A stretch of DNA of 64,000 bases, from contig OZ005689.1 of assembly GCA_963930775.1 (NCBI GenBank), positions 34,767,235 through 34,831,234 of the forward strand, written 5' to 3'. How positions within the stretch are numbered: the stretch's first letter is position 1; each line of letters opens with the position of its first letter. This document shows positions 22,367 through 29,936 of this stretch, in pieces. Origin of the DNA: Cliona cf. orientalis. Lineage: Eukaryota; Porifera; Demospongiae; Clionaida; Clionaidae. The translations under genes were made by a program, and so were the position numbers. Under the pieces are notes generated by a model. It did not search any database. It saw nothing but the letters and a program-made list of their open reading frames with translations, and was not told the origin of the DNA.

Positions 22367-23014
22367 TGTGATCGGATTTGGGAAAACCCTCTGTAAGGGA
22401 TCCGCGTGCGATTCACGCAATGCGCGTTTTAGTAGCTCAGGTCGAAATTGGTCGAAGTCCAGATCATATCGAACAACCCTTCTTTTAACTGTTGCCGTTG
22501 TCTACGGAGGCTAATCGTGCTTTACAAAGGCGAAACAAGCCTTCATTTTGACCCACCTAGTTGGCTCAGCTGCCGTACCCGGAGCCCGTTGCTATGGGCG
22601 CTATTTAGTACCTAGCTACAGCTAGATTCATCGAACTACTGTACATTCGCTCACCTTTTTAGCTTCTTGGGCATCTAAGAACAATCGGCTGTCGTCAACA
22701 ATGAAATTCAACTCTTCCTCGATCTTTAAGTTCATTTCGAACGGCTCCGCCCAGGTCCATTTAATTGATTTCCGGGTCACGTGTAGTATGCGGAAACGCC
22801 ATACGCGTGCATAGCAACACCTTTAGACCATAATTTCTCGATTAGTGGGGGTGTGGCGCGATCGCAAACAAAGTGCTGTATCTCCACAACGAAGCGCATG
22901 ATCGGCCTAAGACTTGAACGCGGGTTAGCTCTATGGTAGAGCTTATCAACCATGCATCAAACTCAATTTTCAGAAAAAAATCCCATACGGAGGGTTTTCC
23001 CAAATCCCGTCACA
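22367..23014 (+). mobile_element. Miniature element family 1, copy D
   Basis: Ends TGTGATCGGATTTGGGAAAA and CCCAAATCCCGTCACA, both with a single change. The minus strand keeps the 58-codon frame (MVDKLYHRANPRSS ... GVSAYYT) and the donor frame (NFIVDDSRLFLDAQEAKK then GTGAGC). Confidence 0.9.
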
Positions 23015-23129
23015 CATACCTAGGCTCTCGTTTTTACTCTGGAGTCTATGGCCAACACTTGAAGCGATAGCCAACTATTCAAATCTTATCCAATACAAGC
23101 ACAAAGGTGATCATTATTAGTAACTAACC

Positions 23130-24492: not shown

Positions 24493-24518
24493 CCCCCCCC
24501 CCCCCCCCCCCCCCCCCC
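24493..24518. repeat. Poly-C tract (26 C)
   Basis: The longest C run in the window, in the intron before exon 4 of gene 1, at the place where coding sequence seems to be missing. Confidence 0.95.
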
Positions 24519-24831: not shown

Positions 24832-24844
24832 CCCCCCCCCCCCC
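24832..24844. repeat. Poly-C tract (13 C)
   Basis: Runs into GG and CCCC just upstream of the DD34E element's left end. Confidence 0.9.
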
Positions 24845-24888
24845 GGCCCCCTTCCCCATCTGTAAGTGAATTCTACTGCGCTTTGCAG

Positions 24889-25032
24889 GTTACTTGTCAA
24901 GAGCAAGTGTAAATGGGCGGTGGCTCAGTTATGATAGGCACCAGACTGGGTACAGGCCCTATTAGTATGGTTGCTATGAAGCCGTAGAGCCTCTCAGTAG
25001 TTGCTCCGGTAGTGGAATGTGCTGCATCAGCA
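24889..25032 (+). repeat. Left long inverted repeat of the DD34E element
   Basis: Begins GTTACTTGTCAAGAGCAAG and ends GTGCTGCATCAGCA. Its inverse is at 27287-27430 with no difference that I can see. Confidence 0.92.
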
Positions 25033-25082
25033 CCTTGCAATTGCGCGCGCTGCTGTATTCCAGTTTGGACTAATCAAGAATC

Positions 25083-26096
25083 ATGGCAAATAATATGAGC
25101 TATAGTCCCAGTGGATTGTGGTGTTACAACTTCTACGCTGGTCCCAACCCGTTTCCTTCACCAAACGCTCAGTTTCCTAGGGGACAGTTTAACGAAGAAC
25201 ACCATTTTGATCTAACTGAAGAAGATGTTCTAAGCCAAGGCTCAAGTTCCCGGTCTCCTACACGCGATCCCCGCCATTTATCACGTGAGTCCAGCTATCC
25301 TGAACATGTACTTTGTAAGGCAATGACCGTGAAAGTGCTAAGCCAGTCTAACAAAAGGGATTGTACCGTTTTTACATTGAGGGATGTTACTCAGGAAGAC
25401 ATGCAAACCCCAGATTCGGTAAAGGCAATGATTTTTGAACAGGTTGGCGATGCTGTCTCAGATAAGCTGGACTTTCCGCTTGGATACTATCGTAAATCTG
25501 AAAAGGTGTGGATAAATAATGAGCATGATGTACATGATGCAATTCAGCTGATGAAGGAGATTGGAAAGGTAACACTTTGGTGTGTGGGTCAAGATCGAAC
25601 CACGACAGCAAGGAAACGGGAGCGAAGTGGAGATGACATTAGTATTCCGGCAAAAAAGAAGAGTGTTAGTGAGGAACGAGCTATTCGTGTGAATGATTTA
25701 AAAGGACAGCTTCGTAAGAAACATGGTTCGGCATACGCTCCTGTACAGTATGCTATGTGGGCAGAAATGCTTGTTGGTGGGGGGCACGATAGCTTGGACG
25801 AACCTCCGGCAACACCAATGTTTGGAGCTGCCCGTGCTCGTGGCAAGTCAGGCACTGGCGCAACCAACATGATAGAAGCATTTACTGCCCTAGCTGGATC
25901 ATTTGCTGATGCCCTGTCCCCACGGCAAATCAATTCGGGTGCAACTGATTCTCCCACCAAAGCAGTGAATCTCAGGGGCAAATACATCCAGCAATTGAAG
26001 GAGCTAGTCGATTTACGTGAGATTGGTGCCTTAACTGTGGAGGAATATGAGGAGCACAGGTCTGCTGTGGTCAATCACATGCGAAAGCTTAATTAA
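25083..26096 (+). CDS. Accessory protein of the DD34E transposon, PB1-like plus SHOCT-like, 337 aa
   Basis: The longest intact frame in the window; ATG at 25083, stop TAA at 26094. Residues 1-75 are Ser/Pro/Asn-rich and disordered-looking, with a short acidic DLTEEDVLS. Residues about 82-168 (MTVKVLSQSNKRDCTVFTL, VKAMIFEQVGDAV, GYYRKSEKVWINNEHDVHDA) look like a PB1/ubiquitin-like beta-grasp domain. A basic KKK/RKRER block near 172-192 may be a nuclear signal. Residues 300-337 (KYIQQLKELVDLREIGALTV EEYEEHRSAV) match the SHOCT pattern of Leu, Gly-x-LT and EE(Y/F). It is convergent with the transposase, 50 bp away. The role is unknown; SHOCT motifs mediate oligomer contacts in other proteins, so a transposase partner is a guess. 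Confidence 0.75.
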   Translation: MANNMSYSPSGLWCYNFYAGPNPFPSPNAQFPRGQFNEEHHFDLTEEDVLSQGSSSRSPTRDPRHLSRESSYPEHVLCKAMTVKVLSQSNKRDCTVFTLRDVTQEDMQTPDSVKAMIFEQVGDAVSDKLDFPLGYYRKSEKVWINNEHDVHDAIQLMKEIGKVTLWCVGQDRTTTARKRERSGDDISIPAKKKSVSEERAIRVNDLKGQLRKKHGSAYAPVQYAMWAEMLVGGGHDSLDEPPATPMFGAARARGKSGTGATNMIEAFTALAGSFADALSPRQINSGATDSPTKAVNLRGKYIQQLKELVDLREIGALTVEEYEEHRSAVVNHMRKLN

Positions 26097-26146
26097 ACAA
26101 TAAGACCGTGATTAACAGTGCTACTAATATTGTTATTGGCGACTAA

Positions 26147-27234
26147 TTACAGTTTGGTTTGATGTATGTACAACATGTATATACACTTATTACAAATAAC
26201 CACTATGTTGCATGTAATGTAAGCAGTCTTGTTGAGTAACAGTATTGAAAGCCATTGAAACTGTAATGTGGGGTAAATATTGAAAGACCAATTCGTTGCC
26301 CTAACAAAAGCTTTCACCTTGGAAAATACCAATTCTATTGGGTTTAAGTCTGGGCTATATGGTGGTAGAAAGCGAAGGAGTGCACCAGTACTGTGAATCA
26401 TTTCAACAACTCCGTTAACATGGTGGACAGAGCAGTTGTCCATCACGACAACTGAATGGGTGTTGATGCCATTGAAGGGCATCAGGAGGGGAATGAGACA
26501 CTTCCTACAAAAATCTTCAAATACATCACCATCAACTGTGTCTTCCAGGATGTATACATCTTCAACACCAAGATATGACATTATTCCAATGGAATTGATA
26601 CGTACTCCGCCATGCTTCAATTGATGATCAATAGCACACATACCTCGTAGACTATAGCCATATGCTCTGATGGTATTTCTACGATTGAATCCAGATTCGT
26701 CAACCCACACTATCATTGCTGGGTCAAATAGCGAGATTTCAGCCAGCCATATGCTCTGATGGTATTTCTACGATTGAATCCAGATTCGTCAACCCACACT
26801 ATCATTGCTGGGTCAAATAGCGAGATTTCAGCCATGAATTTTCCTCTTAAATCATCGCTACACTGCAATGCTATGCGCTAAAGTCACTTTCTGCAGAAGC
26901 CTAGATATTGTATTGTACGGCAGATAGTGGAATTGTGCACATAAGTTCCAGTCATCTTATACAATTCCTCTTGTATTTCATCCAGGTACATGCTGGGCCT
27001 AGCTGCCAACAATTGTATCACTATAATCATTTCAGCCTCATTTAGCATCTTTTCAGGTCCATGTCTGTGTTTTCTAGGTTCAACATCTCCTGTTGACTGG
27101 TATTGATCAACATACCTTCTAACAGATCGTTCAGACATGAAAAGAATATCACTCGCTTCATTATAGCTCATCTTACGTAACAGCACTAACCACACAACTC
27201 TCCACCGCAAATCAGCTGAATAGTGTTTAGGCAT
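26147..27234 (-). pseudogene. DD34E transposase, broken
   Basis: ATG at 27234: MPKHYSADLRWRVVWLVLL, a helix-turn-helix (YNEASDILFMSERSVRRYVD), the winged second helix region to YLGFCRK, then TGA and TAG within a few codons. The frame resumes LQCSDDLRGKFMAEISLFDP, AMIVWVDESGF (first D), HSVVVMDNCSVHH (second D) and FLPPYSPDLNPIELVFSKVK (E). Between the second D and the E there are 34 residues, so DD34E. An 89-bp tandem duplication (26656-26833) over the first catalytic Asp shifts the frame. IS630/Tc1-type enzymes insert at TA, matching the flanks. Otherwise the catalytic residues are kept. Confidence 0.88.
26656..26833. repeat. 89-bp tandem duplication in the transposase
   Basis: The unit starting AGCCATATGCTCTGATGG occurs at 26656 and again at 26745, apparently without change. 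It covers the codons for the first catalytic Asp (WVDESGF), so the motif is present twice. Confidence 0.93.
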
Positions 27235-27286
27235 GGTGCACTATACCCATAGCAAGAATTTTCAAATGTAGCGCGCTTAACGTGTT

Positions 27287-27430
27287 TGCTGATGCAGCAC
27301 ATTCCACTACCGGAGCAACTACTGAGAGGCTCTACGGCTTCATAGCAACCATACTAATAGGGCCTGTACCCAGTCTGGTGCCTATCATAACTGAGCCACC
27401 GCCCATTTACACTTGCTCTTGACAAGTAAC
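27287..27430 (-). repeat. Right long inverted repeat of the DD34E element
   Basis: Inverse of 24889-25032. The transposase ATG at 27234 is about 50 bp inside it, so the repeat may hold its promoter. Confidence 0.92.
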
Positions 27431-27715
27431 GTGAAAAGCGCAGTAACCTGAAGTGATATTGAGGGTGGAGAGATGTAATGAATACCACAGTGTGTTTTAT
27501 TTTCTGCATAACCTTACAGAGAGATTGATGAGAACGACTACGATGTGGATGTGGGTGATGAGGATGATTTGTGATATGGCTGATGGGGAAGGTACACCAG
27601 ATGATGATACTATGGAGGTGCAACCACAAGAGTAAATGAACTAGCTACATGTAAGCATATGAAACTGTTTGCCTAGCAATGTGTGTGTGCATTAATAGTA
27701 TGATACATCTAACGA

Positions 27716-29173: not shown

Positions 29174-29243
29174 CCCACAGTCCGCAAACAATTGCGCGTT
29201 GGAAACTTTCGCATATTGCAATATTTAACCCTAACTTCCTCGT

Positions 29244-29496
29244 TTAATTGATTTCTGGGTCACGCGTAGTATGCGGAAACGCCATACGCGTGCATAGCAA
29301 CGCCTTTAGAACATAATTTCTCCATTATTGGGGGTGTGGCGCAATCGCAAACAAAGCGCTGTGTCTTCACAATGAAGCGCGCGATTGGCCTAAGACTTGA
29401 ACGTGGGTTATCTCTATGGTAGAGCTTATCAACCATGCATCAAACTCAATTTTCAGAAAAAATCCCATATGGAGGGTTTTCCCAAATCCAGTCACA
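29244..29496 (+). mobile_element. Miniature element family 1, copy E, right piece
   Basis: Continues from TTAATTGATTTC to the intact end CCCAAATCCAGTCACA. Its minus strand keeps MVDKLYHRDNPRSS through GVSAYYA. Confidence 0.85.
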
Positions 29497-29936
29497 TATG
29501 AGCAAAAATGTACCCGGCTTGCCGTATTAAGAATATGCAGCAAGCACAATGAATCATTGCTGCGTACGTTGCACGTGGAAGTCCATATACTCGCCGTTTA
29601 GTGCCACACCGACTAAGTCAAAGAGATGGCTGCCAAAACGTTGGAAAAAAAGCAACAGCCATCGTTTCGATGGGAAAAAACAAAAAGATAAGCATGTCTG
29701 TAGATCGTTAGTACATAAAATCAAATAAGAAAGTGACTGGAGAGTTTTTTTCTGTGTGCAGCTGCCATGCTTGCCTACCTGCAACTATGGCAACGGCTCC
29801 GTATCATGGACGATCAATGTTAGCTACACAGCTGACTTCTTTCGAGCCATAACTCAGTAAGTACAGCGTAGAAGCTACGAAGCAGATTTTTGTGTAGAGG
29901 AGTGATTCCTTTATCAATCTATACCAAAAAGTGAAA
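29497..29936. mobile_element. Miniature element family 2, copy b, without ends
   Basis: Matches 16868-17285 of copy a (TATGAGCAAAAATGTACCCGG to TATACCAAAAAGTGAAAAA). It begins exactly at the right end of family 1 copy E, with TA at the junction. It keeps ATGGCTGCCAAAACG and the donor-like CTCA|GTAAGTA. Confidence 0.85.

Follow-up and report, generated by a model that had tools for sequence, protein, structure and literature searches.

A DD34E transposon family of the sponge Cliona cf. orientalis that pairs its transposase with a putative PB1- and SHOCT-like accessory protein

Classical IS630/Tc1-type members carry one gene, and the locus studied here therefore raises the question of what a second, convergent gene is doing within the inverted repeats of such an element, where it lies intact beside a broken transposase gene. 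The locus was found in a window of 64,000 nucleotides, the whole stretch of DNA that was analysed. Its first-pass annotation suggested that the intact partner is either very young or kept for another reason. The reading that we favour, and consider somewhat better than evenly probable, is that this locus is an inactivated copy of an autonomous cut-and-paste transposon with two components, a DD34E IS630/Tc1-type transposase and a PB1-SHOCT adaptor partner.

The element and its transposase

Once the TA target-site duplication is taken off, the element occupies positions 24876-27443 of the window, and its features are as follows.

24874..24875, no strand: left TA target-site duplication, read from the sequence; near-identical relatives also end at TA, at unrelated sites
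24876..25032, + strand: left terminal inverted repeat, 98.7% identical to the right one over 159 nt including the TA, with the inner 144 nt perfect
25083..26096, + strand: accessory gene, 337 codons, single exon, an intact open frame; of the 150 related transposases listed, 136 have a convergent homologue beside them
25308..25592, + strand: PB1-fold domain, roughly residues 76-170 of the accessory protein, as suggested by fold comparison
25593..25664, + strand: basic linker with KKR/KKK-like clusters, a possible nuclear localisation signal
25665..25838, + strand: conserved helical segment, about residues 195-252, from alignments; the helices are predicted
25953..26093, + strand: SHOCT-like C-terminal helical hairpin, residues 291-337 (PF09851, 16.9 bits against a cut-off of 27)
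26150..26716, - strand: C-terminal part of the transposase with the DDE_3 domain, 189 codons open (PF13358, 99.4 bits)
26656..26833, - strand: perfect tandem duplication of 89 bp, frame-shifting; a single unit in a relative, L043
26884..27234, - strand: N-terminal part of the transposase with HTH domains (PF13384, 32.3 bits), from a three-frame reading; a premature stop at its end and a second in-frame stop two codons on
27287..27443, - strand: right terminal inverted repeat, pairing with the left one
27444..27445, no strand: right TA target-site duplication, read from the sequence

With the TA included, the repeats at 24874-25032 and 27287-27445 differ by 2 mismatches in 159 nt, both in the outer 15 nt, and the 144-bp perfect inverted repeats reported earlier are thus confirmed. 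Because two transposase domains, HTH_23 and DDE_3, both score above their Pfam cut-offs and near-exact repeats stand at both ends, it is excluded that the element is a chance product. When the genome (216.8 Mb in 149 contigs) was searched at the DNA level with the left end, four places were found, two of which are the window element's own ends. The other copies of the repeat, for which a search had been proposed, are a diverged and truncated copy on contig C15 (L043), which has one 89-bp unit and retains the second gene as a fragment only, and a solitary right-end piece of 256 nt on contig C3 (L048, 3936-4191), which is about 91% identical and has no coding parts.

A direct repeat of about 260 nt, 93% identical and 6.48 kb apart, flanks the element at 22760-23017 and 29243-29499 and looks like another dispersed repeat; a 52-nt repeat pair also occurs at 22713 and 23337, and long poly-C tracts lie immediately to the left of the element (24493-24518 and 24832-24844).

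The transposase gene starts at 27234 on the - strand, and its first frame meets stops at codons 117 and 119, after residue 116. The two units of the 89-bp duplication (26656-26744 and 26745-26833) follow further downstream, and since the unit is present once in L043, the duplication looks private to the window copy. The three-frame reading bears out the earlier description of a transposase killed by stops and a duplication; judged by its reading frames, the window copy is unable to make a full transposase any more. Its C-terminal piece nevertheless retains the D, D and E residues, with 34 residues from the second D to the E by hand count. Among 32 relatives with a long transposase ORF, this spacing is 34 in 25, 35 in six and 37 in one, so the assignment to the DD34E type holds, and the catalytic residues are conserved in 32 (first D), 31 (second D) and 32 (E) of them. 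HTH and DDE_3 domains, the D-D-34-E arrangement, TA duplication and terminal inverted repeats, which characterise the IS630/Tc1/mariner group, are all present; the single ORF, which is usual in the group though not strictly defining, is not a habit of this family. The NCBIfam IS630 profile scores above its cut-off in all three intact relatives scanned (137-146 against 100 bits), and matches to the Tc3_2 HTH stay below the cut-off in the relatives scanned, while one member of the two-gene family (C1:26254637) reaches it.

Both genes move and diverge together

The first-pass annotation held that the second gene would gain support from several copies with both genes and from an accessory dN/dS below 1, and would be refuted if no other copy had both genes or if the accessory were a host gene captured once. 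The distribution of the two genes across the genome was therefore compared, using the 150 best-scored of 468 transposase candidates found with the window's DDE part and, in the first instance, the 121 genomic matches to the window's accessory protein. Paired by position, 91 of the 150 transposases lie within 2.5 kb of a convergent accessory and none beside a divergent one; three are on the same strand as the nearest accessory, and 56 have no accessory. Two more accessory queries, taken from other sublineages and counted without the places taken as already listed, added 8 and 37 transposases, all convergent and including two of the earlier same-strand cases, giving a total of 136 of 150 with a convergent accessory within 2.5 kb and still none with a divergent one. 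For three of the remaining 14, tblastn in the fetched loci revealed an accessory (L043, as a fragment only; L046; L051); no accessory was found for the other 11 of the 150, one of which has only a same-strand neighbour. The gap between the matched parts of a pair is 29-372 bp in 84 of the 91 first pairs. Merged accessory places number 226 in the genome, fragments included, and the accessory homologues of the listed relatives reach down to about 25-30% protein identity.

Chance neighbourhood of the two genes was rejected by these counts together with random placement and controls. Against the first accessory list, random placement, which used partly approximated chromosome lengths, gave a mean of 0.7 pairs in any orientation and a maximum of 4 in 200 runs. 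In the pogo-type control, which took the first 100 rows of a list of 150 DDE_1 places, one place had a convergent accessory, 1.7 kb away, and three a same-strand one; five of six Tc3_2 HTH places above the cut-off had none, the sixth being a member of the two-gene family. Four places for which the first search had given no accessory were retrieved and inspected, and all four contain a convergent ORF with the conserved motifs of the family, broken into pieces in L055 and L058. A distant accessory query recovers the window accessory at 6.7e-10, and a DDE_3 profile search located a convergent accessory in 23 of 26 additional places, chosen by eye as new among 150 DDE_3 rows. Copies with both genes are thus far more numerous than the support asked for, and the possibility that none existed outside the window is excluded. 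Several copies of the family are clustered at C3:9139000-9163000.

The same counts bear on the idea that the accessory is a passenger, an unrelated host gene captured once by the window copy. Elsewhere PB1 occurs in cellular signalling proteins, which would agree with such an origin, but a homologue in the matching place and orientation in 136 of 150 listed relatives, together with the controls, refutes a single capture, and we give it virtually no credence.

That the pair is mobile as a unit is seen from nearly identical copies. Three copies on three contigs (L040, L041 and L042) share 99.0% and 99.8% identity over about 2.58 kb in the two pairs compared, and L037 and L038 share 99.9% over 2.5 kb; all sit at unrelated places, where identity ends at the TA-ended repeats and the flanks differ. 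An inverted-repeat pair was detected at 26 of the 49 loci examined, many of which have cut flanks, and 22 of these 26 span 2.15-2.68 kb, while both genes occur as long single-exon ORFs at 21 loci.

Selection and protein distances were estimated on family relatives, from single-exon ORFs of at least 300 codons for the accessory (33 loci) and at least 295 codons for the transposase (32 loci). By a Nei-Gojobori count without transition bias, seven close pairs pooled, which are partly non-independent since L042 and L008 were each used twice, show 33.3 synonymous and 30.7 nonsynonymous changes in the accessory, where nonsynonymous sites are 3.43 times more numerous, so that omega is about 0.27, below 1 as anticipated. 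For the transposase, six of the seven pairs give 18 synonymous and 4 nonsynonymous changes and an omega of about 0.06. In pairs with very few substitutions, accessory omega is near 1 or undefined (7 nonsynonymous and 2 synonymous changes in L031/L032, 3 and 1 in L008/L009, 2 and 0 in L041/L042), as is expected of the youngest pairs, on which selection has yet to act. Mean protein identity is 0.30 for the accessory and 0.53 for the transposase, and the faster evolution of the former would likewise be consistent with a conflict between this factor and the host; that ORFs have stayed open at a mean identity of 0.30 is stronger evidence of selection than the omegas of the pairs. Across 15 distinct elements, accessory and transposase protein distances are correlated (Mantel r 0.63, 0 of 5000 permutations). 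The two genes, in sum, share inverted repeats, move together and diverge together under purifying selection, and the PB1-SHOCT protein is a constant component of what moves.

The accessory protein and its proposed role

The convergent second gene of 337 codons was correctly described as intact, the frame at 25083-26096 on the + strand being open. Its combination of PB1 and SHOCT-like parts is supported in the family and qualified for the window protein. The PB1 beta-grasp fold is supported by fold comparison, and Pfam PB1 (PF00564) exceeds its cut-off of 23.6 bits in one relative only (L045, 25.2 bits), with L047 below it at 20.5 bits; matches at E<=1 occur in 4 of the 25 members of the accessory alignment, and no Pfam PB1 match was found in the window protein itself. 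SHOCT (PF09851) matches 21 of the 25 members of alignment A2 at E<=1, with a best value of 1.1e-7, and the window protein is among them, although below the cut-off; among the matches listed in full, only L037 exceeds it (31.8 against 27 bits). The fold comparison gave no clear match for the helical segment or for the C-terminal model. In the alignments the N-terminal part varies, and the helical segment beyond PB1 is among the parts that are conserved. Of the 33 long accessory ORFs, which were selected by length alone, 29 have a basic cluster within 70 residues past the end of PB1; in two of the 33 (L010 and L049) the C-terminal hairpin is cut short.

PB1 domains of type II are defined by a lysine in strand 1, and those of type I by the acidic OPCA motif. 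The strand-1 position, residue 84, is K in 22 and R in 3 of the 25 sequences, as in type II. The first half of the acidic motif is missing, acids occurring at residues 137-141 in 1, 0, 1, 4 and 0 of the 25 sequences, position by position, and the acids of the second half are kept (residue 149 in 25 of 25, residue 152 in 22 of 25). Since the strand-1 lysine is kept and the acidic first half is missing, the domain, with its basic face, should bind an acidic partner and not chain with itself. That partner is perhaps the transposase itself or a PB1 protein of the host. We suppose that the accessory is an adaptor partner of the transposase, in which the basic linker would direct nuclear entry and the SHOCT-like hairpin oligomerisation, and that, by analogy with the Myb-like protein of Harbinger, it might import the transposase, tether it or assemble it at both ends, while the transposase would carry out cutting and joining.

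The same features could be read differently, with the accessory belonging to the transposon and acting on the host, either against silencing or as a decoy in autophagy/ubiquitin signalling, through binding of its PB1 domain to an acidic (type I) PB1 of the host. PB1 partners are usually cellular, the domain retains the basic face alone, and the protein evolves fast with a variable N-terminal part, all of which would suit such a role. Among the listed copies, however, the accessory is seldom apart from the transposase, the two proteins diverge in parallel, and conservation also covers the helical segment, which lies outside PB1. We regard action on the host as possible but doubtful.

In L017 (386-1133), L020 and L028 an apparent intron splits the accessory gene at the codon that matches residue 236 in the alignment. 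It reads GTGAGT...TAG in L017 and L020 and GTAAGT...CAG in L028, and its position and phase agree between the two sublineages. The window accessory and the 33 single-exon accessories lack this spliceosomal-type intron, a distribution that suggests gain or loss of an intron within a transposon gene, and its presence in the three loci makes the accessory look like a eukaryotic, spliceable gene.

This intron also bears on the survival of single genes. Among 47 fetched loci, a biased sample because they were picked by similarity to the window's DDE part, only the accessory is intact by single-exon ORF length at 12 (the window copy, L005, included) and only the transposase at 11. In four of the latter (the near-identical L016-L018, and L028) the accessory may be intact across the intron; L020 has the intron of the L017 type as well, yet its second exon contains a stop. 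If intron-bearing accessories are allowed, loci where the accessory alone survives might be somewhat more frequent. Preferential survival of the accessory is not borne out, and with 12 loci against 11 the suggestion that youth or some other reason for retention is needed to explain an intact partner finds no support; the window accessory is probably intact by chance or recency.

Accessory-only loci are also what would be expected if the accessory were a repressor or controlled the dosage of the element, as repressor copies would give such loci (12 of 47 by ORF length). We think this improbable in view of the similar frequency of transposase-only loci (11 of 47, four of them perhaps with an intact intron-bearing accessory). 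Domestication of the window accessory for a function of the host would account for an intact gene beside a dead transposase, and the perhaps somewhat commoner accessory-only survivors and a 98% identical protein in another public record (P0001) could be cited in its favour. Yet P0001 may derive from the same or a near species, and the window copy may well be young because its two repeats are nearly identical, so that domestication seems to us very unlikely.

Known systems and wider relatives

Tc1/mariner elements are the minimal model of transposition, with one protein and two ends. The Cliona family resembles them and bacterial IS630 in its TA target duplication, DD34E triad and HTH plus DDE_3 architecture, and differs in the convergent second gene beside most copies. 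Within the superfamily, the nearest anatomical parallels are the ciliate ITm elements (Oxytricha TBE, Paramecium elements and Euplotes Tec), which join an IS630-Tc1-mariner transposase with extra ORFs (PMC4724952, PMC5405496). TBE elements have three ORFs, all under purifying selection, with the 22-kD ORF reverse-oriented (PMC4724952), and 13 Paramecium DNA transposons have an ORF2 of unknown function in common (PMC5405496). The Cliona family differs from both, since TBE elements have three ORFs and the largest Paramecium elements have four, one of which encodes a tyrosine recombinase. DD34E/Gambol elements, also compared by description, share DD34E and TA duplications and form a separate clade beside Tc1/mariner; a second gene is unmentioned in the description consulted, where pogo members are said to have one or two ORFs encoding transposases (PMC7386202).

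Outside the superfamily, PIF/Harbinger elements are likewise two-gene cut-and-paste transposons in which the second protein has diverged further and the genes evolve congruently. They differ in transposase superfamily and in the second protein, which in Cliona is PB1-SHOCT: no Myb/SANT-like Pfam match was seen in the window accessory at E<=10, for 20 relatives at E<=0.05 or among 25 of 40 families listed. The Harbinger Myb-like protein is described as binding the repeats, interacting with the transposase and allowing joint nuclear import, which makes it the nearest worked example of the proposed adaptor role (PMC9179366). A PB1 domain was probably acquired by a transposon lineage also in MUGB, comprising MUG7 and MUG8 (PMC8616336); unlike the Cliona accessory, MUGB is domesticated and belongs to another superfamily, and its PB1 lies in an extra 5' exon, with no separate accessory gene.

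No two-gene IS630/Tc1-type element with such an accessory was found among the matches listed from the literature searched, a scope outside which Repbase and closed journals lie. To our knowledge, a solution with PB1 and SHOCT-like modules occurs in no other member of the IS630/Tc1 superfamily. We put at about even the chance that an undescribed, old and very successful IS630/Tc1-type lineage constitutes a genuine two-protein transposition system, with PB1 interaction and SHOCT-like oligomerisation modules. Were a second protein retained through deep divergence, it would demonstrate that a minimal system is able to turn two-component, and hundreds of natural copies in one genome offer material to test why it is kept. 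The lineage would bring PB1 interaction modules into transposon biology, and it also calls for caution, as PB1/SHOCT-like genes in such genomes may be transposon-derived.

Public assemblies contain relatives of both proteins, with 29 matches to the accessory, none of them named, and 756 to the transposase, 120 of which were listed. Several of the accessory matches are 61-73% identical over 97-99% of the window protein, and they come from other genomes because the best other copy scored in the window's genome reaches 51%.
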